This document shows positions 4,999 to 22,607 of a stretch of DNA of 36,277 bases, piece by piece; position 1 is the stretch's first letter; every line of letters begins with the position of its first letter. The notes below the pieces were generated by a model that made no database searches, was not told the DNA's origin, and was given only the letters and a program-made list of their open reading frames with translations. Source of the DNA: Streptomyces boluensis (lineage in GTDB: Bacteria > Actinomycetota > Actinomycetes > Streptomycetales > Streptomycetaceae); NCBI RefSeq assembly GCF_009908195.1, contig NZ_JAAAHS010000029.1, forward strand, positions 1 through 36,277, in the 5' to 3' direction. The position numbers were made by a program, and so were the translations under genes.

Positions 4999-6465
4999 CT
5001 ACTTGTCGCCGCGCACCGGGATGTCGAGGATGACCTGGGTGCCGCGCTCGGGTGCGGGGACCATGTCGAACGTGCCCCCCAACTCGCCTTCCACCAAGGT
5101 CCGTACGATCTGCAGGCCCAGGTTGCCGGTGCGGTGCGGGTCGAAGTCGGCGGGCAGGCCGACGCCGTCGTCCTGGACGGTGATGAGGAGGCGGGCGTCC
5201 TTCCGCGTACCCCCACGGACCGCGGAGACCTCGACCGTGCCGTGGTCGCCTTCGCGGAAGCCGTGCTCCAGGGCGTTCTGCAAGACCTCGGTGAGGACCA
5301 TCGACAGCGGGGTGGCGACCTCGGCGTCGAGGATGCCGAAGCGTCCGCTGCGGCGACCGGTGACCTTGCCCGGGGAGATCTCGGCGACCATCGCGAGGAC
5401 CCGGTCGGCGATCTCGTCGAACTCGACGCGCTCGTCGAGGTTCTGCGACAGCGTCTCGTGCACGATCGCGATGGAACCCACGCGACGCACGGCCTCTTCG
5501 AGCGCGGCGCGGCCGCGGTCGGAGTCGATCCGGCGGGCCTGCAGGCGGAGCAGGGCGGCGACCGTCTGCAGATTGTTCTTCACCCGGTGGTGGATCTCCC
5601 GGATGGTGGCGTCCTTGGTGATCAACTCGCGCTCGCGGCGGCGCAGTTCGGTCACGTCGCGCAGCAGTACGAGGGAGCCGATCCGGGTGCCCTTGGGCTT
5701 GAGCGGGATGGCGCGGAGTTGGATCACGCCGTCGTCGCCCTCGACCTCCGTCTCGCGCGGCGCCCAGCCGCTGGCCAGCTTGACCAGCGCTTCGTCCACG
5801 GGGCCGCGGGAGGGAGCGAGTTCGGCGGTGGCCCGGCCGAGGTGGTGGCCGACCAGGTCGGCGGCGAGGCCAAGGCGGTGGTACGCGGACAGGGCGTTCG
5901 GCGAGGCGTACTGCACGATGCCGTCGGCGTCGAGACGGATCAGGCCGTCGCCCACGCGCGGTGACGCGTCCATGTCGACCTGCTGACCGGGGAACGGGAA
6001 GGACCCTGCGGCGATCATCTGCGCGAGGTCGGAGGCGCTCTGGAGGTACGTCAGCTCCAGGCGGCTCGGTGTGCGGACCGTGAGCAGGTTGGTGTTGCGG
6101 GCGATGACGCCGAGGACGCGGCCCTCGCGGCGCACGGGGATCGACTCGACGCGGACCGGCACCTCCTCGCGCCACTCCGGATCGCCCTCGCGCACGATGC
6201 GGCCCTCGTCGAGCGCGGCGTCGAGCAGGGGGCGCCGGCCGCGGGGGACGAGGTGGCCGACCATGTCGTCCTGGTACGAGGTCGGGCCGGTGTTGGGGCG
6301 CATCTGGGCGACCGACACATAGCGCGTGCCGTCGCGGGTGGGCACCCACAGGACCAGGTCCGCGAAGGAGAGGTCGGAGAGCAGCTGCCACTCCGAGACC
6401 AGCAGGTGCAGCCACTCGAGGTCGGTGTCACCGAGGGCTGTGTGCTGGCGTACGAGTTCGTTCAT
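4999..6465 (-). CDS. pdtaS: PdtaS-type sensor histidine kinase (GAF-PAS-HisKA_2-HATPase)
   Basis: A 488-residue cytosolic kinase without membrane segments. Order: a GAF-like sensor (about 1-155), a PAS domain (about 170-275; LIRLDADGIVQYASPNA), the HisKA_2 dimerisation domain with the phospho-acceptor motif HHRVKNNLQ (292-300), and a HATPase_c domain (N-box VLTEVLQNALEHGF; G-boxes DDGVGLP and GNLGLQIVRTL). This architecture and the wblE neighbour match M. tuberculosis PdtaS (Rv3220c), whose partner PdtaR is an ANTAR-type RNA-binding response regulator; a partner is not in this window. ATG at 6465 is preferred because homology starts there; a GTG nine bases upstream is possible. Upstream lies a 418-bp region with a probable small RNA gene on the same strand, so pdtaS may be transcribed partly by read-through. 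Confidence 0.92.
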   Translation of the reverse strand: MNELVRQHTALGDTDLEWLHLLVSEWQLLSDLSFADLVLWVPTRDGTRYVSVAQMRPNTGPTSYQDDMVGHLVPRGRRPLLDAALDEGRIVREGDPEWREEVPVRVESIPVRREGRVLGVIARNTNLLTVRTPSRLELTYLQSASDLAQMIAAGSFPFPGQQVDMDASPRVGDGLIRLDADGIVQYASPNALSAYHRLGLAADLVGHHLGRATAELAPSRGPVDEALVKLASGWAPRETEVEGDDGVIQLRAIPLKPKGTRIGSLVLLRDVTELRRRERELITKDATIREIHHRVKNNLQTVAALLRLQARRIDSDRGRAALEEAVRRVGSIAIVHETLSQNLDERVEFDEIADRVLAMVAEISPGKVTGRRSGRFGILDAEVATPLSMVLTEVLQNALEHGFREGDHGTVEVSAVRGGTRKDARLLITVQDDGVGLPADFDPHRTGNLGLQIVRTLVEGELGGTFDMVPAPERGTQVILDIPVRGDK

Positions 6466-6562
6466 GGAGGGCACGTGTGCGAGCGTACCTGCCGCCTCGG
6501 ACAGCGCCGACCTCGTAGGGCGCGCCGGTTCCGGGCCTGAAAACACCCGCGGGCCGCGGCAC

Positions 6563-6721
6563 CTGAGAGGGACCCTCAACCCTCTCGGCACCGCAGCCCG
6601 GAGCTGTTCCGGCCGTCGGGTGTGCGGTTCCCGTGCGGCCGAGAGGCTCCGACGCGGTCAGGGCAGAGAGCGTCGGGCGCCTCACTCCGCTCTTCTGTGC
6701 GGGAAGAGCGGAAGCTTTACC
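6563..6721 (-). ncRNA. scr5239: Probable small RNA, scr5239 orthologue
   Basis: S. coelicolor scr5239 is a conserved 159-nt RNA from the intergenic region upstream of SCO5239, the pdtaS-type kinase gene; it pairs with dagA and metE mRNAs (recalled). Here the same intergenic region has a minus-strand promoter ending near 6727, a stem of ten pairs (6686-6695 with 6703-6712) near the 5' end and a terminator-like stem GAGAGGG/CCCTCTC (6565-6571, 6580-6586). Counting 159 nt from a start near 6721 ends at 6563, exactly after that stem. Boundaries are inferred, not observed. A dre site in the promoter fits reported DasR dependence. Confidence is limited because I cannot align it with the known RNA. 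Confidence 0.65.
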
Positions 6722-6726
6722 AGTGC

Positions 6727-6756
6727 ATTGTGGACTAGACCATTCTCGGATGTCCA
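6727..6756 (-). promoter_or_regulatory. Small-RNA promoter with embedded DasR operator (dre)
   Basis: On the minus strand TGGACA (6756-6751), an 18-base spacer and CACAAT (6732-6727) resemble a housekeeping promoter. The spacer and the -10 edge contain a palindrome at 6731-6742 that reads TGGTCTAGTCCA on this strand and matches 11 of 12 positions of the dre core TGGTCTAGACCA. DasR bound there would block RNA polymerase. Confidence 0.6.
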
Positions 6757-6883
6757 TGCGTGGGTAGATGTTTGTTCTCCTGCGCCGCCTCAACGGCCAT
6801 CTGCCCCTGCGGCTTTCTACCTCTGCGGCAGCCCGCGCCGCAATGAGTCGCACCCTCACATCTTGCGCCCTGTCCCCTACCGC

Positions 6884-7609
6884 TCACGGGGCGGGGGGCC
6901 ATGCGGCCATCGCGAGGTCGGCTACGCGCTCCAGCTCCTCTTGGGTGGCACCGTCCCTGGCCTGCTGCGACATGCCCTGGAAGACGGCTGCCGTGTAGCG
7001 GGCGAGGGCTCCGGGATCGCAGTCCGCGGGCAGTTCGCGGGCCGCTACTCCGGCGCGGATACGAGACTCGAACGTGCTGATGTTGGCCTCGCGCCGCTCC
7101 CGCAGGGTCTGTTCGACCTCGGGGGTCGTGCAGTTGGTGGCGGCGTGGATGACGAGGCAGCCGTGCGGGCGGCCGGGGGCGGCGAACTCGGCGGCCGCCT
7201 CGTGCAGCATCCGGCCCAGGGCGGCTCGGGCGGTGGGTTCCTCGTCGAGAGCGCGCGTGCCGAAGGAGCCGTACGAGTCGACGTATGTCTCCAGGACCTC
7301 TTCGAAGAGGGTGCGCTTGTCGCCGAAGGCGGCGTAGAGGCTGGGGGGTCCGATACCCATGGCGCGGGTGAGGTCGGAGACGGACGTCGCTTCGTAGCCC
7401 CGCTCCCAGAAGGTCCAGATCGCTTGGCGGAGGGCCTTCTCGCGGTCGAAGGAGCGCGGGCGCCCACGCTGCTTCGCCGGGCCTGCGGCGGGATCCTTGA
7501 CGTTCTTCTTCGCGGGCTCCGCCGCTACCGCCTTCGCCGCCGCGGCGTCCGCGGATCTCTCCGTCGCCGCCGGGGTCGTGCGTCGCTTCGCTGCCGGGTT
7601 CGCCACCAT
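6884..7609 (-). CDS. TetR-family transcriptional repressor
   Basis: A 241-residue regulator. Residues 1-48 are an Ala/Lys-rich, probably disordered extension; the TetR DNA-binding domain follows (about 53-100; ALRQAIWTFWERGYEATSVSDL, then PPSLYAAFGDKRTLF). The C-terminal domain (about 110-235) has CLVIHAATNC and is of the YjdC/NemR-like class that senses small electrophilic or hydrophobic molecules. ATG at 7609 is the longest start; an internal start near the HTH is possible given the low-complexity leader. Two matching palindromes lie just upstream and probably bind this protein. No recognisable target gene is divergent from it, which is unusual for this family. Confidence 0.85.
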   Translation of the reverse strand: MVANPAAKRRTTPAATERSADAAAAKAVAAEPAKKNVKDPAAGPAKQRGRPRSFDREKALRQAIWTFWERGYEATSVSDLTRAMGIGPPSLYAAFGDKRTLFEEVLETYVDSYGSFGTRALDEEPTARAALGRMLHEAAAEFAAPGRPHGCLVIHAATNCTTPEVEQTLRERREANISTFESRIRAGVAARELPADCDPGALARYTAAVFQGMSQQARDGATQEELERVADLAMAAWPPAP

Positions 7610-7876: not shown

Positions 7877-7892
7877 ATTGGTCTATACCACC
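7877..7892. promoter_or_regulatory. DasR operator (dre) of nagB
   Basis: The core TGGTCTATACCA (7879-7890) matches the dre core at 11 of 12 positions and lies 48 bp upstream of nagB, where DasR represses nagB in S. coelicolor. Confidence 0.85.
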
Positions 7893-7939
7893 ATGACCAA
7901 CGCGTGCACTATCCACTACCTCAGATCGGCAGGCCCAGC

Positions 7940-8725
7940 GTGGAAGTTGTCATCGTCAAGGACGCCAAGGCGGGCGGAGAGCTCATCGCGGGGGCCATCG
8001 TGGACCTGCTCGCCCGCAAGCCCGACGCGCTGCTCGGCGTGGCCACCGGATCGACCCCGCTGCCCATCTACGACGCCCTGATCGCCAAGGTGCGGGGCGG
8101 CGGCGTGGACGCGTCGCGGGCGCGGATCTGCCAGCTCGACGAGTATGTGGGGCTGCCCGCCGGGCATCCGGAGTCGTACCGCGCGACCGTGCTCCGTCAG
8201 GTGGTCGAGCCGCTCGGACTGCCCGCGGACCAGTTCATGGGGCCGGACGGCAGCGCCGAGGACGTGCAGGCGGCGTGCGAGGCGTACGACAAGGCGCTGG
8301 CCGGGGCCGGCGGGGTGGACCTGCAGATCCTCGGGATCGGGACCGACGGGCACATCGGGTTCAACGAGCCGTGCTCCTCGCTCGCCTCGCGTACGCGGAT
8401 CAAGACGCTGATCGAGCAGACCCGGATCGACAACGCGCGCTTCTTCGACGACGACATCGACCAGGTGCCGCACCACGTGATCACCCAGGGCATCGGGACC
8501 ATCCTGGACGCCCGCCATCTGGTGCTGCTCGCCACCGGTGAGGGCAAGGCGGAGGCCGTGGCGCAGACCGTCGAGGGGCCGGTGTCCTCGCTGGTGCCCG
8601 CGTCGGCGCTGCAGTTGCACCCGCACGCCACGGTCGTGGTGGACGAGGCGGCGGCGTCCAAGCTGAAGCTGGCGGACTACTTCCGGCACGCCTTCGACAA
8701 CAAGCCCTCCTGGCAGGGGATTTGA
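7940..8725 (+). CDS. nagB: Glucosamine-6-phosphate deaminase
   Basis: A 261-residue cytosolic enzyme converting glucosamine-6-phosphate to fructose-6-phosphate and ammonia, the step that feeds imported N-acetylglucosamine into glycolysis. Family motifs: phosphate-binding GVATGSTPLP (33-42), catalytic D67 in CQLDEYVGL, and D136, H138 and E143 in GIGTDGHIGFNEP; length is close to E. coli NagB (266). GTG at 7940 is chosen because the conserved fold begins there (VEVVIVKDA); an ATG 36 bases upstream lacks a ribosome site. The dre site just upstream makes it a DasR target: GlcN-6-P, its substrate, is the DasR effector, closing a feedback loop. It converges with dasD, separated by a strong stem-loop. 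Confidence 0.96.
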   Translation: MEVVIVKDAKAGGELIAGAIVDLLARKPDALLGVATGSTPLPIYDALIAKVRGGGVDASRARICQLDEYVGLPAGHPESYRATVLRQVVEPLGLPADQFMGPDGSAEDVQAACEAYDKALAGAGGVDLQILGIGTDGHIGFNEPCSSLASRTRIKTLIEQTRIDNARFFDDDIDQVPHHVITQGIGTILDARHLVLLATGEGKAEAVAQTVEGPVSSLVPASALQLHPHATVVVDEAAASKLKLADYFRHAFDNKPSWQGI

Positions 8726-8795: not shown

Positions 8796-10301
8796 TCAGT
8801 GGTCCGTGCCGAGCAGGGCCTCCGCTGCCGCTACCGCGCACACTCGGGCCGCGCCGTAGGTGGCGATGTGTACGGCGCCGCGTGGGGGTGCCTGGGGGAC
8901 GCCCATCTCGACGACCACCGTGTCCGGGCGGGCGGTGAGCAGGGCGTCCAGGGTGGCCGCCATCCACGGGTGGCGGTGGGCGTCGCGGACGACGGCGACG
9001 ATGCGGCGTCCGCCGGCCGCGGTGAGGATGTCGGCGGGGTCGGACTCGGCCGCGTAGCTGCCGGTCTCGGTGCCGGGGAGCAGGCGGGTGAGTTCGGCGG
9101 CGACGCCCCAGGGGGTCTCGTCCCCGACGGCGATGTTGGCCATCGGGGTGAGTGCGGCGACGAAGGCCGGTGCGGTGAGCAGCGGGTGCTCGGCGTCGAC
9201 GGTGACCGCGAGGGCGCGGCGGGCCGCGATCTGGCCGATGTCGCGGCCGACACCGCTCTCGACGCGTACCGCCGTGGTCGTCCACTCCCCCAGGGCGCGC
9301 ACCCGGGCGGCGGCGTCGGCGAGGCGTTCCTCGGGGAGTTCGCCGCTGCGGACGGCGGCGACGAGGGCGTCACGGAGCCGTAGGACGGTCTCCTCGTCGG
9401 CGAGGCCGCCGCCGACGCAGATCGCGTCGGCGCCTGCGGCGAGGGCGAGGACGCTGCCGCGTTCGATGCCGTAGGTGGAGGAGATGGCCTGCATCTCCAT
9501 GCCGTCGGTGACGATCAGGCCGTCGAAGTTCAGTTCCTCGCGGAGCAGGCCCGTCAGGATGCGGCGGGAGAGCGTCGCGGGGCGGTCCGGGTCGAGGGCC
9601 GGGAGCAGGATGTGGGCGCTCATCACGGCCTTGGTGCCGGCGGTGATGGCGGCGCGGAAGGGGGCCAACTCCCGTTCGCGCAGCACGTCGAGGCTCGCGT
9701 CGATGCGCGGCAGCGAGTGGTGCGAGTCCACGGCGGTGTCGCCGTGGCCGGGGAAGTGCTTGGTGCAGGCGGCCACACCGGCGGCCTGGAGGCCCTTGAC
9801 GTACGCGGCGGTGTGCCGGGCGACCAGGTCCCGGTCGGCGCCGAAGGAGCGGACGCCGATGACCGGGTTGTCGGGGTTGGAGTTGACATCGGCGGACGGC
9901 GCCCAGTTGAGGTTGACGCCGCAGGTGGCGAGGCGACGGCCGAGTTCGGCGGCGACGTCGCGGGTGAGGATCGGGTCGTCGACGGCGCCGAGGGCGTGGT
10001 TGCCGGGGAAGGAGGAGCCGGAGCGGACCTCGAGGCGGGTGACGTCGCCGCCCTCCTCGTCGATGGCCACCAGCACGTCTTCGCGTTCGGCGCGCAACTG
10101 GGCGGTGAGGGCGGCGAGTTGATGAGGGGAGGCGATGTTGCGGCCGAACAGGCCGACCGAGTGCAGGCCTTCGCCGATGCGGCGGAGCAGCCACTCGGGC
10201 GCGGTGGTGCCGACGAAGCCCGGCTGGAGGACGGCCAGGGCGTCGCGGGCGAGCCCGTCTTTCGCGTTGGATCCGGTGGTGGCTCGGGTGGGTGTCGTCA
10301 T
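8796..10301 (-). CDS. dasD: Family 3 beta-N-acetylglucosaminidase (DasD)
   Basis: A 501-residue GH3 enzyme with no signal peptide, so cytosolic, placed to split imported chitobiose into N-acetylglucosamine. The (beta/alpha)8 domain carries the substrate motif KHFPGHG (181-187), the D192-S-H194 loop whose His is the acid/base in NagZ-type GH3 enzymes, and the nucleophile D266 in VTDGMEM. A second alpha/beta domain of about 150 residues follows, without an evident catalytic residue. ATG at 10301 lies 10 bases after the dasC stop, so it is the last gene of the das operon. NagZ cell-wall recycling is an alternative role, but the transporter context favours chitooligosaccharide use. Confidence 0.9.
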   Translation of the reverse strand: MTTPTRATTGSNAKDGLARDALAVLQPGFVGTTAPEWLLRRIGEGLHSVGLFGRNIASPHQLAALTAQLRAEREDVLVAIDEEGGDVTRLEVRSGSSFPGNHALGAVDDPILTRDVAAELGRRLATCGVNLNWAPSADVNSNPDNPVIGVRSFGADRDLVARHTAAYVKGLQAAGVAACTKHFPGHGDTAVDSHHSLPRIDASLDVLRERELAPFRAAITAGTKAVMSAHILLPALDPDRPATLSRRILTGLLREELNFDGLIVTDGMEMQAISSTYGIERGSVLALAAGADAICVGGGLADEETVLRLRDALVAAVRSGELPEERLADAAARVRALGEWTTTAVRVESGVGRDIGQIAARRALAVTVDAEHPLLTAPAFVAALTPMANIAVGDETPWGVAAELTRLLPGTETGSYAAESDPADILTAAGGRRIVAVVRDAHRHPWMAATLDALLTARPDTVVVEMGVPQAPPRGAVHIATYGAARVCAVAAAEALLGTDH

Positions 10302-10311
10302 ACGGCGGGGG

Positions 10312-11157
10312 TTATCCCTTCACGGCGCCTGCGGTGAGGCCGCTGACGGCCTTGCGCTGCAGGAAGAGGAAGAGGAGCAGGATCGGGATGGCGAAGAGGG
10401 AGGAGGCGGCCATGGTGGCGCCCCAGTCGTCGCCGAACACGGTCTGGAACTTGGAGATCCACAGGGGCAGGGTCTGGGCCTCGGCCTGCTTGTTGAGGAT
10501 CAGCACCATCGGGAACTCGTTCCAGGCGGTGATGAAGCCGAAGAGGGAGGTCGCCATCAGGCCGGGGGCGAGCAGCGGCAGGATGACCTTGATGAAGGCC
10601 TGGGGTCTGCTGCAGCCGTCGACCATCGCCGACTCCTCCAGGTCCTTGGGGATGGCCCCGACGAAGCCGCGGAGCGTGAGCAGCGTGAAGGGCAGCACCA
10701 TCATCATGTAGAAGAGGGTGAGCGGGACGAGGCTGTTGAGCATGTCGGCGTCGCGGACCAGCATGTAGATCGCGATGACCATGACTTCCCAGGGCGCCAT
10801 CTGCGCGAGCATGAAGGCGATGATGAAGCCGCGGCGCCCCTTGAACCGCATCCGGGCCAGGGCGAACGACGCGAGCAGCGCGATGACCAGGGAGAACAGC
10901 ACCGCGAGCCCGGTCACGGTGACCGAATTCCGTACCAGGGTCCAGAAGTTGTCGGCGGTGACGGCGGTCTGGAAGTGCTCGAAGGTGAAGTCGAGGGGGA
11001 ACCAGACGGGGTCCTCGCTGATGATGTCGCCGGTCGGTTTGAAGGCCGTGGCGAACATCCAGTAGACGGGGAAGACGAAGACGAGGGTCAGCACGGTGGC
11101 CAGGGCGTTGGGCCAGATCCGGCGCAGCCGCGACGCGGTGGATCGGGAGCGGCTCAC
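10312..11157 (-). CDS. dasC: Chitobiose ABC transporter permease DasC
   Basis: A 281-residue inner-membrane permease of the MalG class with about six helices. The cytoplasmic EAA loop that docks the ATPase is clear (DLEESAMVDGCSRPQAFIKVILPLLAPG). It pairs with DasB to form the channel for N,N'-diacetylchitobiose delivered by DasA; no ATPase is encoded here, and in S. coelicolor the shared ATPase MsiK serves this system (recalled). The GTG start overlaps the dasB stop as GTGA (11154-11157), indicating translational coupling. Confidence 0.94.
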   Translation of the reverse strand: MSRSRSTASRLRRIWPNALATVLTLVFVFPVYWMFATAFKPTGDIISEDPVWFPLDFTFEHFQTAVTADNFWTLVRNSVTVTGLAVLFSLVIALLASFALARMRFKGRRGFIIAFMLAQMAPWEVMVIAIYMLVRDADMLNSLVPLTLFYMMMVLPFTLLTLRGFVGAIPKDLEESAMVDGCSRPQAFIKVILPLLAPGLMATSLFGFITAWNEFPMVLILNKQAEAQTLPLWISKFQTVFGDDWGATMAASSLFAIPILLLFLFLQRKAVSGLTAGAVKG

Positions 11158-12155
11158 AGCTCGTCCTCCTCTTGCTTGAGCACGATGCGAAGGTAGTACG
11201 AGGTCAGGGCGAGCAGGATCACGATGGTGAGCAGCGCGATGGCGGAGCCCATGCCGAAGTGCTGGTTGCCGAAGCCCTCGATGTACGCGTAGACGGGCAG
11301 GATCTCGGTGAGCCGGTCCGGGCCGCCCTCGTTGATCGCGAAGACCTGGGTGAAGGCCTTGAAGACCCAGATGACCTCCAGGAACGTGGTCGCGAGGAGG
11401 AAGGGCCGCAAGAACGGCATGGTGACCGAGGTGAAGCTCGTCCACGCGCCGGCGCCGTCGAGCGAGGCGGCCTCGTAGAGCTCCTTGGGGATGGTGGTGG
11501 TGGCCGCGTACAGGTTGATCGCCACGAACGGGATGGACTGCCAGACGATGAGCAGGGTGACCACGGCGAAGGTGGAGAACTGCGTGCCGAGCCAGTTGTG
11601 GTCGGCCATCGAGTGGAAGCCGAGCTTGTCGAGCACCCAGTTGACGACGCCGAAGCGCTGGGCGAACAGCCACTGGAAGACGGTGGTGCCGGCGATCGGC
11701 GGCATGGCCCAGGCGAGGACGAGGCCGATGAGCAGGGTCAGCCGCATCTTGCTGCCGAGCCGGGCGAGCAGCAGCCCGACCAGGGTGCCGAAGATCATGA
11801 TGAGTACGACATTGGCGCCGGTGAACAGGACGGAGCGGACGGCGACCCGCCAGAACTCCGAACTGGCAAGCACCTCGGCGTAGTTGTCGATGCCGTTCCA
11901 CTCGGTGAGGTGCTGGATCAGCTGCCTCATGTTGAGGTTCTGGAACGACAGGAGCCCGTTCTTGACCAGCGGCCAGCCGAGCAGCAGCAGGGTCGCCGCG
12001 AGGGCGGGGAACAGCAGCAGATAGGGCGCGAGTGCGGTGGTGCGGGCCCGTGCCGCCGCTGTCCTGCGCGGCGCCCGCCGTTCACCGCCGTCCGCCTTGA
12101 GGACCTCCGCCGGGCGGGAGTCCGGGCGTTCGGTCTGCACGGTCATGCTCGCCAT
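11154..12155 (-). CDS. dasB: Chitobiose ABC transporter permease DasB
   Basis: A 333-residue MalF-class permease: a basic, Arg/Ala-rich cytoplasmic N-terminus of about 40 residues, then about six membrane helices. The EAA loop is KELYEAASLDGAGAWTSFTSVTMPFLRP. ATG at 12155 abuts an AAAGAG sequence; a second in-frame ATG three codons later (12146) has better spacing and may be the true start. It lies downstream of dasA across an 84-bp gap containing a stem-loop that would lower its expression relative to dasA. Confidence 0.94.
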   Translation of the reverse strand: MASMTVQTERPDSRPAEVLKADGGERRAPRRTAAARARTTALAPYLLLFPALAATLLLLGWPLVKNGLLSFQNLNMRQLIQHLTEWNGIDNYAEVLASSEFWRVAVRSVLFTGANVVLIMIFGTLVGLLLARLGSKMRLTLLIGLVLAWAMPPIAGTTVFQWLFAQRFGVVNWVLDKLGFHSMADHNWLGTQFSTFAVVTLLIVWQSIPFVAINLYAATTTIPKELYEAASLDGAGAWTSFTSVTMPFLRPFLLATTFLEVIWVFKAFTQVFAINEGGPDRLTEILPVYAYIEGFGNQHFGMGSAIALLTIVILLALTSYYLRIVLKQEEDEL

Positions 12156-12190
12156 CTCTTTCGTACGAGAGCTTTCCGGTGCGGCAGTGG

Positions 12191-12235
12191 CGCGCCGGGG
12201 GCGGGGCGGGGAGGCCGGTGCCCGTCCCCGGCGCG
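12191..12235. promoter_or_regulatory. Stem-loop between dasA and dasB
   Basis: CGCGCCGGGG (12191-12200) pairs perfectly with CCCCGGCGCG (12226-12235) around a 25-base loop. Such hairpins after sugar-binding-protein genes protect the upstream mRNA or partly stop transcription, raising binding protein over permease. Confidence 0.6.
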
Positions 12236-12239
12236 TGGG

Positions 12240-13508
12240 TCACTGCTTCTGCGCGAGGCGCTTGTTGAACTCGCCCTCGACCTGCTTGGCGGCGGCGGCG
12301 TGCGACTTACCGTTCAGGACCGCGGTCATGTAGGTCTTGATCGGGTTCGGCGGGTTCTCCACGGCGGCCCACTCGGGGATCAGCGGGGTGGTGCCGCCGC
12401 CGGCGACGGCGGGAGCGGCGGCCTCGCCGGCGGGCTGGCCCTGGAGGTTCTTCTGCAGCGACTCCTTGTTGGGGATGACGCCGAGTTCCTTGGAGAGCTG
12501 GCCCTCGAACTTGTCGGAGAGCGCGATCTTCAGGAACTCCTTGGCGAGTTCCTGCTTCTCGCTGCCCGCGGCGACGGCGAGGTTGGAGCCGCCGAGGAAG
12601 ACGCCTTCCGGCTTGTCCGCGGTGTCGCCCGGGATCGTGAAGTAGCCGATGTCCTTCTCGATCTTCGGGTTGGCCTTGATGGCGATGCCGGATTCCCAGC
12701 CCATGCCGATGAAGGCGCCGGTCTTGCCCTTGGCGAAGACCTCACCCTGCTGCGGGGTGGCCTCGTCCTTGTCCTTGGGGGCGGTGGAGTACGAGGCGTA
12801 CTTCTTGTAGATGTCCATGGCCTCGCCGACCTTGGGGTCCGCGAGGTTGGAGACCCACTTGTCGCCCTTCTTCTTGACCAGTTCGGCGCCGGTGCCGATG
12901 GTCAGGCCGTCGAAGAAGTACCAGTTCTGGCCGGGCATGTAGACGGGCTCGGCCTTGCCCTTGGCCTTGATCTTGTCGAAGGCCTCGAAGAGTTCGGCGC
13001 GGGTCTCGGGGATGCCGGTGACGCCGGCTTCCTTGAAGACCCGCTTGTTGTAGACGACGACGCGGTTGGCGGCGAACCAGGGGGCGGCGTACTGCTTACC
13101 GTCGAAGACCGAGGGCTCGTTGAGGGTCTCGGTCCAGTCGGCGCCGATGGACTTCTTGAGGTCCTCCAGTTCGGCGAGGCCTCCGGTCTGCGCGTACGCC
13201 GGGGTCTGGGTGTTGCCGATCTCGAAGACGTCGGGCGGGTTCTCCTCGGAGAGGGCGGTGGTCAGCTTCTGCTGAATGCCGTTCCACTGCTGGATCTCGA
13301 CCTTGAGCTTGGCGCCGGTCTTCTTCTCGAAGGCCGCCTTCACGTCCTTGGACCAGCCGTCGGGAGTGGAACCGTCCATGGCCCACACGGTCAGCGTCTG
13401 GCCCTTGAACCCGTCCGCCCCCGTGCTCTTGCCGTCGTCCGAACCGCAGGCCGCGACCGACACCAACATGCCCGCTGCACCGATCGCGGCTATGAGCTTG
13501 CGCTTCAC
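12240..13508 (-). CDS. dasA: Chitobiose-binding lipoprotein DasA
   Basis: A 422-residue extracellular solute-binding protein (family 1). A basic start (MKRKL), hydrophobic core and lipobox SVAAC place the lipidated cysteine at residue 21, so it is anchored to the outer face of the membrane. The mature part has the two-lobe sugar-binding fold (LTVWAMDGS at the start; GAFIGMGWESGIA and FLGGSNLAVAAGS further on). It captures N,N'-diacetylchitobiose from chitin breakdown and passes it to DasBC. GTG at 13508 follows GAGGAGGG. It is divergent from dasR with two dre sites in between, so it is expected to be repressed by DasR and released by GlcN-6-P. Confidence 0.95.
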   Translation of the reverse strand: MKRKLIAAIGAAGMLVSVAACGSDDGKSTGADGFKGQTLTVWAMDGSTPDGWSKDVKAAFEKKTGAKLKVEIQQWNGIQQKLTTALSEENPPDVFEIGNTQTPAYAQTGGLAELEDLKKSIGADWTETLNEPSVFDGKQYAAPWFAANRVVVYNKRVFKEAGVTGIPETRAELFEAFDKIKAKGKAEPVYMPGQNWYFFDGLTIGTGAELVKKKGDKWVSNLADPKVGEAMDIYKKYASYSTAPKDKDEATPQQGEVFAKGKTGAFIGMGWESGIAIKANPKIEKDIGYFTIPGDTADKPEGVFLGGSNLAVAAGSEKQELAKEFLKIALSDKFEGQLSKELGVIPNKESLQKNLQGQPAGEAAAPAVAGGGTTPLIPEWAAVENPPNPIKTYMTAVLNGKSHAAAAKQVEGEFNKRLAQKQ

Positions 13509-13871
13509 GTCACCCTCCTCAGGGATGCCACCAACCCCCCACCCACTTCGGCGACATGTGGCAGTGCACTGTTCGTGGGACTGGGACCTGGTCTTTAATG
13601 GTGTAGACCAGTACGGGGAGCTTGGCCTAGACCTTTAGGGGTGTCAAGGGTGTATAAGAGGGGTCCCGCATCCCGTTACCTGACCGACACCTGAGGGAGA
13701 GCGACAGGTCGCGGCCGGGCCGTGCCACGATGTGAGCCGCGACAGACGGAGGAGCCGGTGACGGCAGCAGCACAGGAGCCGCAGCGGGGAACCGCGCGCA
13801 GGCGGTCCCCCCTGACGGGGTCCGAGGGAGCGGCGAAGAGGGGCGGGGCCTCTCGGACAGATGGGCAGGGC
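13509..13871. other. dasA-dasR divergent control region
   Basis: 363 bp if dasR starts at 13872. It holds two dre sites, a TTGACA hexamer read on the minus strand (13646-13641) that could be the dasA -35, and a plus-strand TATAAG at 13653-13658. From 13758 onward the dasR frame is open and preceded by GGAGGAG, so part may code for a longer DasR. Confidence 0.6.
13597..13634. promoter_or_regulatory. Two DasR operators (dre) controlling dasA and dasR
   Basis: The cores TGGTGTAGACCA (13599-13610, 11 of 12 matches) and TGGCCTAGACCT (13623-13634, 10 of 12) are 24 bp apart centre to centre. A further left half-site, TGGTCT, begins at 13589. Confidence 0.85.
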
Positions 13872-14666
13872 ATGGGCACCGAGACGAGCAGCACGGAGAA
13901 CGGCACGGGCATCGCGTCCGCGGAGACGCGCGAGCCGCAGGCCGCGACCCGTACCGCACGCGTGCCCAAGTACTACCGGCTCAAGAAGCACTTGCTCGAC
14001 ATGACGGAGACGCTGCCGCCCGGCACGCCCGTACCGCCCGAGCGCACGCTGGCCGCCGAGTTCGACACCTCCCGCACCACCGTGCGCCAGGCCCTTCAGG
14101 AACTGGTCGTCGAGGGGCGCCTGGAGCGGATCCAGGGCAAGGGCACGTTCGTGGCCAAGCCCAAGGTGTCCCAGACGCTCCAACTCACCTCGTACACCGA
14201 GGACATGCGCGCGCAAGGGCTCGAACCCGCCTCGCAGCTCCTCGACATCGGGTACGTCACGGCCGACGACCGGCTCGCCGAGCTGCTCGACATCGCCGCC
14301 GGCGGCCGGGTGCTCCGTATCCAGCGGCTCCGCCTCGCGAACGGCGAGCCGATGGCGATCGAGACCACCCATCTCTCCGCCAAGCGCTTCCCCGCGCTGC
14401 GCCGCTCCCTGGTCAAGTACACCTCGCTCTACACGGCGTTGGCCGAGGTGTACGGCATCCACCTCGCCGAGGCCGAGGAGACCATCGAGACCTCCCTCGC
14501 CACCCCGACCGAGGCGGCGCTGCTCGGTACGGACGTGGGGCTGCCGATGCTGATGCTGTCCCGGCACTCTGTCGACGCGGAGGGCCAGCCGGTGGAGTGG
14601 GTGCGGTCCGTGTACCGCGGCGACCGGTACAAGTTCGTCGCTCGCTTGCAGCGGCCGCAGGGGTAA
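13872..14666 (+). CDS. dasR: GntR/HutC-family regulator DasR
   Basis: A 264-residue master regulator of aminosugar use, development and antibiotic production. The N-terminal winged helix (about 32-105) shows [21 protein letters not shown] and GKGTFVA; the C-terminal UTRA domain (about 110-258) binds GlcN-6-P and related phosphosugars, which release it from dre sites. Its core sequence is nearly the same as I recall for S. coelicolor DasR. ATG at 13872 is chosen because the opening residues ([10 protein letters not shown]) resemble the S. coelicolor start (MSTDVSSAEN). An in-frame GTG at 13758 has a much better ribosome site (GGAGGAG) and would add 38 residues. It is divergent from dasA and shares its dre sites. 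Confidence 0.95.
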
Positions 14667-19924: not shown

Positions 19925-19972
19925 ACACAACATATGGGGGCACCCACAAGCATCGCCCACCACATGTATGCT
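19925..19972. promoter_or_regulatory. Paired NrdR boxes
   Basis: ACACAACATATGGGGG (19925-19940) and a second weaker element around CCACATGTATGC (19960-19971) have AT-rich centres 31-32 bp apart, the three-helical-turn spacing typical of paired NrdR boxes. NrdR represses ribonucleotide reductase genes when dATP/ATP signals excess. The second box is less conserved, and any promoter would overlap these boxes. Confidence 0.6.
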
Positions 19973-20087
19973 CGTCCTCGCTGTCGCCGCAGGGGAATCC
20001 GGTGCGAATCCGGAACTGTCCCGCAACGGTGTATCGGTGCGCTTTTGCGTACCTGTCGAGTCCGAAGACCTGCCGACGGCGCACCCG
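19971..20087 (+). ncRNA. Cobalamin (AdoCbl) riboswitch
   Basis: The conserved core is plain: GGGAATCCGGTGCGAATCC (19993-20011), then CTGTCCCGCAACGGT (20016-20030), and the 3' element GAGTCCGAAGACCTGCCG (20058-20075). The order and spacing match the actinobacterial cobalamin riboswitch. In S. coelicolor this RNA switches off the class Ia nrdABS operon when coenzyme B12 is present, so that the B12-dependent class II enzyme NrdJ is used instead (recalled). Exact ends are approximate. Confidence 0.93.
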
Positions 20088-20106
20088 TACCGTCCGGTCC
20101 GGGTGC
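20081..20106 (+). terminator. Hairpin at the riboswitch 3' end (candidate expression platform)
   Basis: GCACCCG (20081-20087) pairs with CGGGTGC (20100-20106), and inside it ACC pairs with GGT. It begins 5 bases after the last conserved riboswitch motif, so it can compete with the aptamer's closing helix. No T-run follows. Confidence 0.5.
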
Positions 20107-20225: not shown

Positions 20226-22607
20226 GTGACCATCGCGCCAGCCGATCCTGTCTCAACCCAGGCCGCACCGGGCCGGGCCGACGAAGACGCCCCAGGTACC
20301 GCGCTCCTGCGCACCCTGACCGAGCTGACCGCCGACCTGCCCGACACCGACCCGGGACGGGTCGCCGCAGCCGCACTGCGCGGCCGGCACGCGGGCTCGG
20401 ACGCGGCCGAACTGCGCGAACTGGCCACCGACGCCGCCGCGGGCCTGATCTCCGAGGACCCGGCGTACTCCCGGCTCGCCGCCCGGCTGCTCACCCGCAC
20501 CGTCGCCGACGAGGCGGCCTCGCAGGGCGTCACGTCGTTCACCGAATCCGTCGCCGTCGGGCACCGCGAAGGCCTGATCGCCGACCGTACGGCCGCGTTC
20601 GTGGCGGCGCACGCCGAGCGGCTCGACGCCCTCATCGACACGGCCGCCGACGACCGCTTCGGCTACTTCGGGCTGCGCACCCTGCACAGCCGCTACCTGC
20701 TGCGGCACCCCCTCACCCGCAAGGTCGTCGAGACCCCGCAGCACTTCATGCTGCGCGTCGCGGCGGGCCTCGCCGAGGACGACAGCACCCGAGCCCTCGA
20801 CGAAGTCGCCGCCCTGTACGGCCTGATGAGCCGCCTGGACTACCTGCCGTCCTCGCCGACCCTCTTCAACTCCGGTACGCGGCACCCGCAGATGTCGTCC
20901 TGCTACCTGCTCGACTCCCCTCTGGACGAGCTGGACTCCATCTACGACCGGTACCTCCAGGTCGCCCGCCTCTCCAAGCACGCCGGTGGCATCGGCCTCT
21001 CGTACTCCCGTATCCGCAGCCGGGGTTCGCTGATCCGGGGCACCAACGGGCACTCCAACGGCATCGTGCCGTTCCTGAAGACCCTCGACGCCTCGGTCGC
21101 CGCGGTGAACCAGGGCGGGCGCCGCAAGGGCGCGGCCGCCGTCTACCTGGAGACCTGGCACTCCGACATCGAGGAGTTCCTGGAGCTGCGCGACAACACC
21201 GGTGAGGACGCGCGCCGCACGCACAACCTCAACCTCGCGCACTGGATCCCCGACGAGTTCATGCGCCGCGTCGACGCCGACCAGGACTGGTCGCTGTTCT
21301 CGCCGGCCGACGTGCCCGAGCTCGTCGACCTGTGGGGCGAGGAGTTCGACGCCGCGTACCGCAGGGCCGAGGCGGACGGACTGGCCCAGAAGACCATCCC
21401 CGCACGGGACTTGTACGGCCGCATGATGCGCACCCTCGCGCAGACCGGCAACGGCTGGATGACCTTCAAGGACGCCGCCAACCGCACCGCCAACCAGACC
21501 GCCGAGCCCGGCCACACGGTGCACTCCTCGAACCTGTGCACCGAGATCCTGGAGGTCACGGACGACGGGGAGACCGCGGTCTGCAACCTGGGGTCCATCA
21601 ACCTCGGCTCGTTCGTGGACGCCGGCTCGCAGGGCATCGACTGGGAACGCCTCGACGCCACCGTCCGTACCGCCGTGACGTTCCTCGACCGCGTCGTCGA
21701 CATCAACTTCTACCCGACCGAGCAGGCGGGCCGCTCCAACGCCAAGTGGCGCCCGGTGGGCCTGGGCGCGATGGGTCTGCAGGACGTGTTCTTCAAGCTG
21801 CGGCTGCCCTTCGACTCCCCCGAGGCGCGCACCCTCTCCACCCGCATCGCCGAGCGCATCATGCTCGCCGCGTACGAGGCGTCCGCCGGACTCGCCGTGC
21901 GCAACGGCCCGTTGCCCGCCTGGGAGAAGACCCGTACCGCGCGCGGTGTGCTGCACCCCGACCACTACGGCGTGACCGCGCACTGGCCGGAGCGCTGGGC
22001 GGCGCTGCGGGAACGTATCGCCACGACCGGGATGCGCAACTCGCTGCTGCTCGCCATCGCGCCGACCGCCACCATCGCGTCCATCGCGGGTGTCTACGAG
22101 TGCATCGAGCCGCAGGTCTCCAACCTCTTCAAGCGCGAGACGCTGAGTGGGGAGTTCCTCCAGGTCAACGCGTACCTGGTGGAGGAGCTGAAGCGGCTCG
22201 GCGTCTGGGACGCGCAGACCCGCGAGGCGCTGCGCGAGGCCAACGGCTCGGTGCAGGGCTTCGGTTGGGTGCCCGAGGAGGTGCGTGCCCTCTACCGCAC
22301 GGCCTGGGAGATCCCGCAGCGCGGCCTGATCGACATGGCCGCCGCCCGCACCCCGTACCTCGACCAGGCGCAGTCGCTGAACCTGTTCCTGGAGACGCCG
22401 ACCATCGGGAAGCTCTCCTCGATGTACGCGTACGCCTGGAAGCAGGGCCTGAAGACCACGTACTACCTGCGGTCCCGCCCCGCGACCCGGATCGCCCGCG
22501 CGGCCGGCTCCCAGAGCGCCGCGACCCCGATCCCCGTGCAGGCCGCCGACCCCGACGCCGTCGCCTGCTCCCTGGAAAACCCCGAGTCCTGCGAGGCCTG
22601 CCAGTAA
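20226..22607 (+). CDS. nrdA: Class Ia ribonucleotide reductase large subunit
   Basis: A 793-residue catalytic subunit that reduces ribonucleoside diphosphates to deoxy forms with NrdB. Visible: SSCYLLDS (active-site Cys), the thiyl-radical loop NLCTEIL with the finger motif, the TATIASIAGVYECIEPQ signature, and the C-terminal redox pair C789-E-A-C792. The first about 70 residues retain only the last part of the usual ATP-cone region; the N-terminal nucleotide-binding strand (KRDG type) is absent, so dATP inhibition may be lost or altered. GTG at 20226 follows GAGGGAG; upstream in-frame reading passes through the riboswitch and is rejected. Its stop overlaps the nrdB start (TAATG). Controlled by NrdR boxes and the cobalamin riboswitch. 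Confidence 0.95.
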   Translation: MTIAPADPVSTQAAPGRADEDAPGTALLRTLTELTADLPDTDPGRVAAAALRGRHAGSDAAELRELATDAAAGLISEDPAYSRLAARLLTRTVADEAASQGVTSFTESVAVGHREGLIADRTAAFVAAHAERLDALIDTAADDRFGYFGLRTLHSRYLLRHPLTRKVVETPQHFMLRVAAGLAEDDSTRALDEVAALYGLMSRLDYLPSSPTLFNSGTRHPQMSSCYLLDSPLDELDSIYDRYLQVARLSKHAGGIGLSYSRIRSRGSLIRGTNGHSNGIVPFLKTLDASVAAVNQGGRRKGAAAVYLETWHSDIEEFLELRDNTGEDARRTHNLNLAHWIPDEFMRRVDADQDWSLFSPADVPELVDLWGEEFDAAYRRAEADGLAQKTIPARDLYGRMMRTLAQTGNGWMTFKDAANRTANQTAEPGHTVHSSNLCTEILEVTDDGETAVCNLGSINLGSFVDAGSQGIDWERLDATVRTAVTFLDRVVDINFYPTEQAGRSNAKWRPVGLGAMGLQDVFFKLRLPFDSPEARTLSTRIAERIMLAAYEASAGLAVRNGPLPAWEKTRTARGVLHPDHYGVTAHWPERWAALRERIATTGMRNSLLLAIAPTATIASIAGVYECIEPQVSNLFKRETLSGEFLQVNAYLVEELKRLGVWDAQTREALREANGSVQGFGWVPEEVRALYRTAWEIPQRGLIDMAAARTPYLDQAQSLNLFLETPTIGKLSSMYAYAWKQGLKTTYYLRSRPATRIARAAGSQSAATPIPVQAADPDAVACSLENPESCEACQ

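Follow-up and report, generated by a model that had tools for sequence, protein, structure and literature searches.

The scr5239 locus and its family

The window analyzed here, a 36,277-nucleotide stretch of one Streptomyces boluensis contig, carries a small RNA gene on the minus strand beside the sensor kinase gene pdtaS, with genes for a TetR regulator, amino-sugar enzymes, an ABC importer and DasR further along (Table 1). The Rfam covariance model RF02605 (scr5239) matched the RNA from end to end (model positions 1-158 of 158, 156 nt, E 3.4e-24) at 142.5 bits, over a gathering score of 64, and a whole-genome search placed it nowhere else in S. boluensis. A sequence-only reading of this DNA had proposed a probable scr5239 gene and named a covariance-model alignment as the check; the full-length match, the SCO5239 orthologue alongside and an exact copy of the published DasR core in the promoter bear the proposal out. 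The RF02605 match, the pdtaS neighbor and the presence of the RNA in 369 of 394 Streptomycetaceae genomes (E ≤ 0.001, strict filters; 288 genomes above the curated score, with matches in 12 of 17 genera) together identify 6559-6714 (-) as the scr5239 gene. This identification is an ordinary one, both the RNA and its control by DasR being established already.

Table 1. Genes and RNA features at the scr5239 locus of S. boluensis, in window coordinates.
Feature	Position	Strand	Basis or remark
pdtaS (SCO5239 orthologue), GAF_PdtaS sensor kinase	4999-6474	-	Pfam
U-rich tail GCGGGTGTTTTC after hairpin	6539-6550	-	expected termination zone, predicted
3' arm of long hairpin GGTGCCGCGGCCC	6551-6563	-	6551-6558 outside Rfam 3' end
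scr5239, Rfam RF02605	6559-6714	-	142.5 bits
P5 stem-loop, 7 bp, tip of long hairpin	6565-6586	-	fold
5' arm of long hairpin GGGCTGCGGTGCC	6587-6599	-	contains the reported core GCUGCGG (PMC4365011)
P1 stem-loop, loop CCGCACA	6685-6714	-	Rfam match and fold
-10-like hexamer CACAAT	6727-6732	-	two-base overlap with dre core
DasR site (dre) core TGGTCTAGTCCA	6731-6742	-	identical to published scr5239 core
-35-like hexamer TGGACA	6751-6756	-	sequence and promoter scan
TetR	6884-7609	-	Pfam
nagB, glucosamine-6-phosphate deaminase	7904-8725	+	Pfam
GH3	8796-10301	-	Pfam
Two ABC permeases and solute-binding protein (ABC importer)	10312-13508	-	Pfam
dasR, GntR/UTRA regulator	13722-14666	+	Pfam

Pfam confirmed the identity of the neighbors, and with it the physical grouping of the RNA with nagB, the ABC genes and dasR, the last about 7 kb away. 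In 12 genomes where both genes could be placed, dasR lies 5.7-8.5 kb from scr5239, so the grouping is old; dasR itself was present in all 20 genomes tested. Two dre-like sites, each two mismatches from the scr5239 core, were seen upstream of nagB (7879-7890) and in the dasA-dasR gap (13599-13610). Elsewhere in the window is a cobalamin riboswitch aptamer (RF00174, 45.2 bits, 19962-20091, +), which ends some 135 bases ahead of a possible frame start, the GTG at 20226.

Comparisons were made over 113 loci, comprising the window, the 30 best of the family search and loci from three further genome batches (22 of 30, 30 of 30 and 30 of 30 genomes) picked to cover weak RF02605 matches and other genera. 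A second, overlapping model match in genome G223 (L054, beside L039) was left out of every locus count; the two matches there reflect extra sequence between the 5' stems and the seed hairpin. Among the genomes listed, G142 is the only one of the same genus without an RF02605 match; the hairpin model and promoter/dre pattern described below also find nothing in it, and it has a dasR that is 92% identical.

The RNA has been described as probably among the best-characterised sRNAs of Streptomyces coelicolor (PMC8388888), where it is reported to be 159 nt long with metE as a target and GCUGCGG as the target core, and to have a five-stem structure for which enzymatic and in-line probing are cited as validation (PMC4365011). 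In the comparisons made here, S. coelicolor A3(2) is represented by the sequences of relatives, for example S. violaceorubidus (L147). The S. boluensis gene resembles that of S. coelicolor in its full-length covariance match, its pdtaS/SCO5239 neighbor, the exact dre core, the stems P1-P3 and P5, and GCUGCGG, which lies within 6587-6599 (-) and is kept as an exact 7-mer in 107 of the 113 loci. It differs in having CAGCUCC ahead of the core where S. coelicolor has UUGCUCC, in a proposed RNA about 20 nt longer at the 3' end, and in the gap between dre core and RNA, which is 16 nt here against 50-51 nt in the presumed S. coelicolor-type loci; the published S. coelicolor spacing is given as 49 nt.

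Promoter and DasR operator

The sequence TGGACA-N18-CACAAT, which the sequence-only reading had picked out on the minus strand, was the sole promoter-like match in 6400-6900 (6756-6727; shuffles gave a mean of 0.0), and a search of the 8.2-Mb genome for the composite of promoter and DasR core found this single copy. Judging by the position of the promoter, the RNA would start near 6721/6720. The palindromic dre consensus is TGGTCTAGACCA; the match of 11 in 12 positions first read from the sequence holds against that consensus, and against the published scr5239 core it rises to 12 of 12.

Control of scr5239 by DasR is already established in S. coelicolor. There DasR was bound upstream of the gene in ChIP-on-chip and gel shift experiments (PMC4398421), and northern blots and a reporter are described in which scr5239 goes up without dasR and down with excess DasR; mutation of dre raised the activity of the scr5239 promoter reporter about three-fold, and a 50-bp promoter lacking dre remained active, its reporter signal being about three times that of the wild type (PMC7025569). 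The identical core, these reports and the presence of dasR in every genome tested all point to DasR control in S. boluensis as well. Compared with other sites of the DasR regulon, the predicted S. boluensis operator is alike in carrying the core of the experimentally bound scr5239 dre, with dasR some 7 kb off, but differs in that the reported binding is that of S. coelicolor.

Across the family, 108 of the 113 loci carry the dre core with at most one mismatch, 104 of them exactly. TGGACA, or a variant differing from it at one base, stands 17 or 18 nt before the -10 hexamer in 105 of the 108. Over all 108, that hexamer is CACAAT in 94, CAGAAT in 12, and AACAAT and CACTAT in one each. Five loci are without dre (L036, L037, L064, L069 and L077), and four of them retain TGGACA-N17/18 with CAGAAT or AACAAT (three recognised by the pattern, L064 by eye); that the hexamers are kept where the operator is not supports their role as a promoter. 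Loss of dasR as the cause of the absent dre was ruled out, since the gene is present in all five genomes. The remaining locus, L037, from a 4.8-Mb genome (G206), has neither dre nor a recognisable promoter, and its RNA comes directly after the end of a gene that by eye resembles an SIS-domain amino-sugar protein, from which it is possibly read through. Some genera other than that of S. boluensis (L046, L050, L053 and L155) have a dre-like TTGTCCAGACCAAT in inverted orientation, about 40 bases further upstream than the scr5239 dre.

The distance between the -10 hexamer and the Rfam 5' end is 12 nt in S. boluensis. It was measured in 103 loci whose dre is exact (L057, at a contig end, was left out) and ranges from 2 to 94 nt in the 88 where P1 is placed as modelled; most of the remaining 15 values, nine of which are negative, cannot be trusted, since divergent 5' ends are misplaced by the model. 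Four loci, L009 and L016-L018, are assigned to the S. coelicolor type on the basis of the published spacing; their gaps of 46-47 nt imply that the RNA there has a leader, is processed at its 5' end or has a second promoter. We consider it unlikely that a second promoter between dre and the RNA gives the published 5' end, with DasR blocking an upstream start or acting as a roadblock: the spread of gaps and the reported activity of the truncated dre-less promoter (PMC7025569) are in its favor, but by eye there are no conserved hexamers just upstream of the Rfam 5' end, and S. boluensis has just those 12 bases to hold one.

The 3' hairpin

The predicted fold of 6539-6721 contained P1, P2, P3 and P5, with a long helix in place of the published P4. 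An alignment of 21 loci showed conservation continuing past the Rfam 3' end, where the block GGCGCCGCGGCCC (GGTGCCGCGGCCC in S. boluensis, 6563-6551) pairs over 13 bp with GGGCUGCGGUGCC (6599-6587), a segment that includes the metE-binding core; P5 forms the tip of the resulting hairpin. The Rfam model covers both partners of five of the 13 pairs and eight require sequence beyond it, the Rfam 3' end at 6559 splitting the full hairpin (20-21 bp, 6600-6550) in half. The first nine columns past that end have a mean identity of 97%, which drops to 65% thereafter, and 14 records of another collection have the same 3' block. The hairpin alone was predicted to fold at -43.7 kcal/mol (z -5.96), compared with z -1.31 when cut at 6559, and as the 3' end is extended past 6559 the predicted fold shifts from a branched form to the long hairpin.

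These results amend what had been read from the sequence by itself. Its 10-bp 5' stem is real and has 11 bp (UUCCGCUCUUC/GAAGAGCGGAG); its terminator-like 7-bp stem is also real, but is the tip of the 20-21 bp hairpin. The start it gave, near 6721, is where the promoter suggests, but the ends of its 159-nt RNA agree with those of neither the Rfam match nor the conserved hairpin. An RNA of about 180 nt, from about 6721 to about 6540, would be expected instead.

In resembling an intrinsic terminator, scr5239 has a long G+C-rich hairpin followed by GTGTTTTC; the 21-bp form of the hairpin is followed by CGGGTGTTTTC. It differs from such terminators in that the 5' arm doubles as the reported target-binding sequence, and in a short U-run that begins several bases past the stem. 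The tail holds at most four consecutive T, which we counted against the terminator reading, and a terminator scan flagged only another hairpin, of 5 bp at 6559-6547. This second candidate was rejected and the long hairpin preferred, since the second arm of the 5-bp hairpin, CGCGG, gives way to different sequence at many loci from other genera.

Covariation was assessed in two alignments. In the first (A1, 109 distinct RF02605-derived rows, being the 113 minus four identical segments), the 13-bp helix is paired in 99.3% of 1415 cells, falling to 38-52% when the partners are slid; the published P4 is paired in 88.0% of 651 cells and shows zero double changes. A1 alone is insufficient as proof of the helix, as it has little variation and its shuffles come close, with 21 of 500 reaching the 2 double-change cells and 18 of 500 the percentage paired. 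The second (A2) has 36 rows, 26 from A1 hand-picked for diversity and 10 new loci found with a model of the hairpin; the hairpin-model matches L164 and L167, which have no promoter/dre at the expected place, were left out. Here the long helix is paired in 98.7% of 468 cells and has 11 double-change cells in 4 pairs, and P4 is paired in 76.9% of 216 cells. None of these values for the long helix was reached by any of 500 shuffles, while the number of further pair types was reached by 75 of 500. Nine of the 11 double-change cells fall in seven loci first found by the hairpin model, which favors pairing; a search with just the promoter/dre pattern recovers the same seven. L067 and L092 hold the remaining two cells. 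At column 30, 2 of 36 A2 rows and 5 of 109 A1 rows break the C-G pair. The compensatory changes support the long hairpin, and the published P4 shows none.

The hairpin model (R1) was run on 20 listed genomes in which the genome scan gave no RF02605 match (five further negatives lay outside this search) and matched in 12 of them. At ten of the 12 places the upstream sequence holds an exact dre core together with hexamers of -35-like and -10-like type, including the variants TAGACA in L157 and CACTAT or CACGAT in some. A rescan of the 12 with RF02605 under lax filters gave no match in nine and 35.2, 28.3 and 23.1 bits in L157, L155 and L160, all below the gathering score. When the same 20 genomes were searched with the promoter/dre pattern alone, nine had one site each and 11 had none, and reversed-pattern controls found no sites in the 20; each of the nine is followed on its own strand, after 108-135 nt, by an R1 match. 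The hairpin model extends searches for the scr5239 family, with matches in 12 of 20 genomes where the RF02605 genome scan had none.

We conclude that scr5239 probably ends in a longer hairpin than published. The reported 159-nt length and probed five-stem structure (PMC4365011) disagree with such a 3' end, and they favor a reading in which most of the stable RNA is the 159-nt form, made by trimming a longer precursor into the hairpin, with P4 forming in the mature RNA. Consistent with that reading, the long helix is incomplete without the arm beyond 6559 and the predicted fold is then branched. It has to contend, however, with the lower pairing of P4 than of the long helix in both alignments, with the lack of any double change in P4 in A1, and with the absence of P4 from the minimum-energy fold of the Rfam-length S. 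boluensis RNA, and we regard it as possible but somewhat doubtful. Both RF02605 and the 159-nt RNA used in the work on targets break off within this family-wide conserved hairpin. Should the RNA indeed end about 20 nt later, its structure, target predictions and in vitro binding would need to be redone with the longer RNA.

The extended hairpin, and the repeated inversion described below, may be new, a suggestion that comes from comparison of sequences. Neither is mentioned in the scr5239 literature searched, parts of papers other than the first reports of 2011/2012 and a 2014 review, and both may be described elsewhere.

Some ATG/GTG frame of at least 10 codons is found in 59 of 113 loci, and scr5239 has been listed among potential dual-function RNAs (PMC8672173). 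The predicted S. boluensis transcript holds no complete ATG/GTG/TTG frame of at least 7 codons, and a separate small protein in this RNA thus found no support.

Inversion, targets and proposed mode of action

PdtaS adjoins the RNA in all 113 loci, with the two in the same direction in 41, S. boluensis included, and divergent in 72. Where NagB, GH3 or TetR was seen (77 loci), its orientation relative to pdtaS is constant; the other 36 loci have none of them within the fetched flank. A quick PdtaS tree requires at least 8 orientation changes, and well-supported branches make 3 of these unavoidable. The promoter, dre, RNA and 3' arm invert as a block, in place, beside pdtaS, which indicates one unit and argues against the 3' block serving in the control of pdtaS. 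The divergent arrangement, in which the RNA points towards nagB, is probably the older state, as most loci from other genera have it.

We think it very improbable that the promoter and dre belong to pdtaS and that the RNA is its 5' leader. The RNA does lie directly upstream of pdtaS in the loci with a common direction, and the S. ambofaciens homologue was first predicted in a UTR before being put on an sRNA list (PMC8388888). The unit nevertheless faces away from pdtaS in most loci, and changes orientation repeatedly on the tree. Furthermore, S. coelicolor SCO5239 is reported to be leaderless with a start of its own (PMC4365011), and in S. boluensis the pdtaS GTG at 6474, with a TACGCT ending seven bases upstream by eye, fits a leaderless start.

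In S. coelicolor, scr5239 is reported to repress metE, dagA and pepck, with gel shifts, an oligonucleotide block and reporter fusions for metE (PMC4365011) and repression described for pepck (PMC7025569). The control of methionine synthase that the sequence-only reading attributed to this RNA is not upheld in S. boluensis, where CCGCAGC, the S. coelicolor core site, is absent near the start of metE (L116). Among 25 scr5239-bearing genomes, 16 have a metE match (15 above the curated score) and 9 have none, and CCGCAGC is near the start in 14 of the 18 metE loci examined, a set that excludes four partial or weak matches (L117, L134, L137 and L138). The pepck pairing, as we read it, joins UUGCUCC to GGAGCAA; with CAGCUCC in the RNA and AAGGAGCAATCGTG in pckG, the S. 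boluensis pairing is by eye down to GGAGC/GCUCC. Duplex energies were reached by 239 of 500 mononucleotide shuffles for metE and by 115 of 500 for pckG, these shuffles being a weak control. Neither metE nor pepck is supported as a conserved target here, the metE core site being absent, the pepck pairing reduced and the energies unremarkable against shuffles.

Taken jointly, the locus very probably encodes an scr5239 RNA with a DasR-blocked promoter and a predicted terminator-hairpin end. A housekeeping-type promoter, TGGACA-N18-CACAAT, would drive the RNA; DasR on the overlapping dre would block it, and an amino-sugar phosphate would release DasR and turn the RNA on, as reported in S. coelicolor. 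Conservation and folding suggest that transcription would stop at the 20-21 bp hairpin and U-rich tail. Since the 5' arm contains the reported metE/dagA-binding sequence, the full-length RNA may keep that sequence double-stranded until the hairpin is trimmed, cut or opened.

It is somewhat less likely than not that the long hairpin is a terminator only, with GCUGCGG kept as its arm, pairing to metE and dagA being incidental or lineage-specific and the functional parts lying elsewhere, as in the P2 loop and the two CCGCACA loops. Where its sequence has changed, in L159-L163, L165 and L166, the arm is for the most part still paired, CCGCACA occurs in 112 of 113 loci, and both the genomes without a metE match and the metE genes without CCGCAGC, that of S. 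boluensis among them, fit this reading; the reported metE regulation in S. coelicolor (PMC4365011) and retention of the core site in most metE loci examined speak against it. More tentatively, and with our own expectation leaning the other way, scr5239 could be a self-masked regulator in which cutting, trimming or unwinding of the terminator hairpin, possibly by RNase III or a 3' exonuclease, sets the amount of active RNA as a second control after DasR. Were that so, the published five-stem structure would be that of a truncated RNA.

The CCGCACA loop is common to P1 and P3 and is found twice in 81 loci. An ANTAR-type site for PdtaR was considered for these C-rich loops and set aside, as they are unlike the motif. 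The published targets, which use P4, leave the CCGCACA loops unexplained, and likewise the CTGCCCTGAC that the P2 loop carries in 102 of 113 loci.
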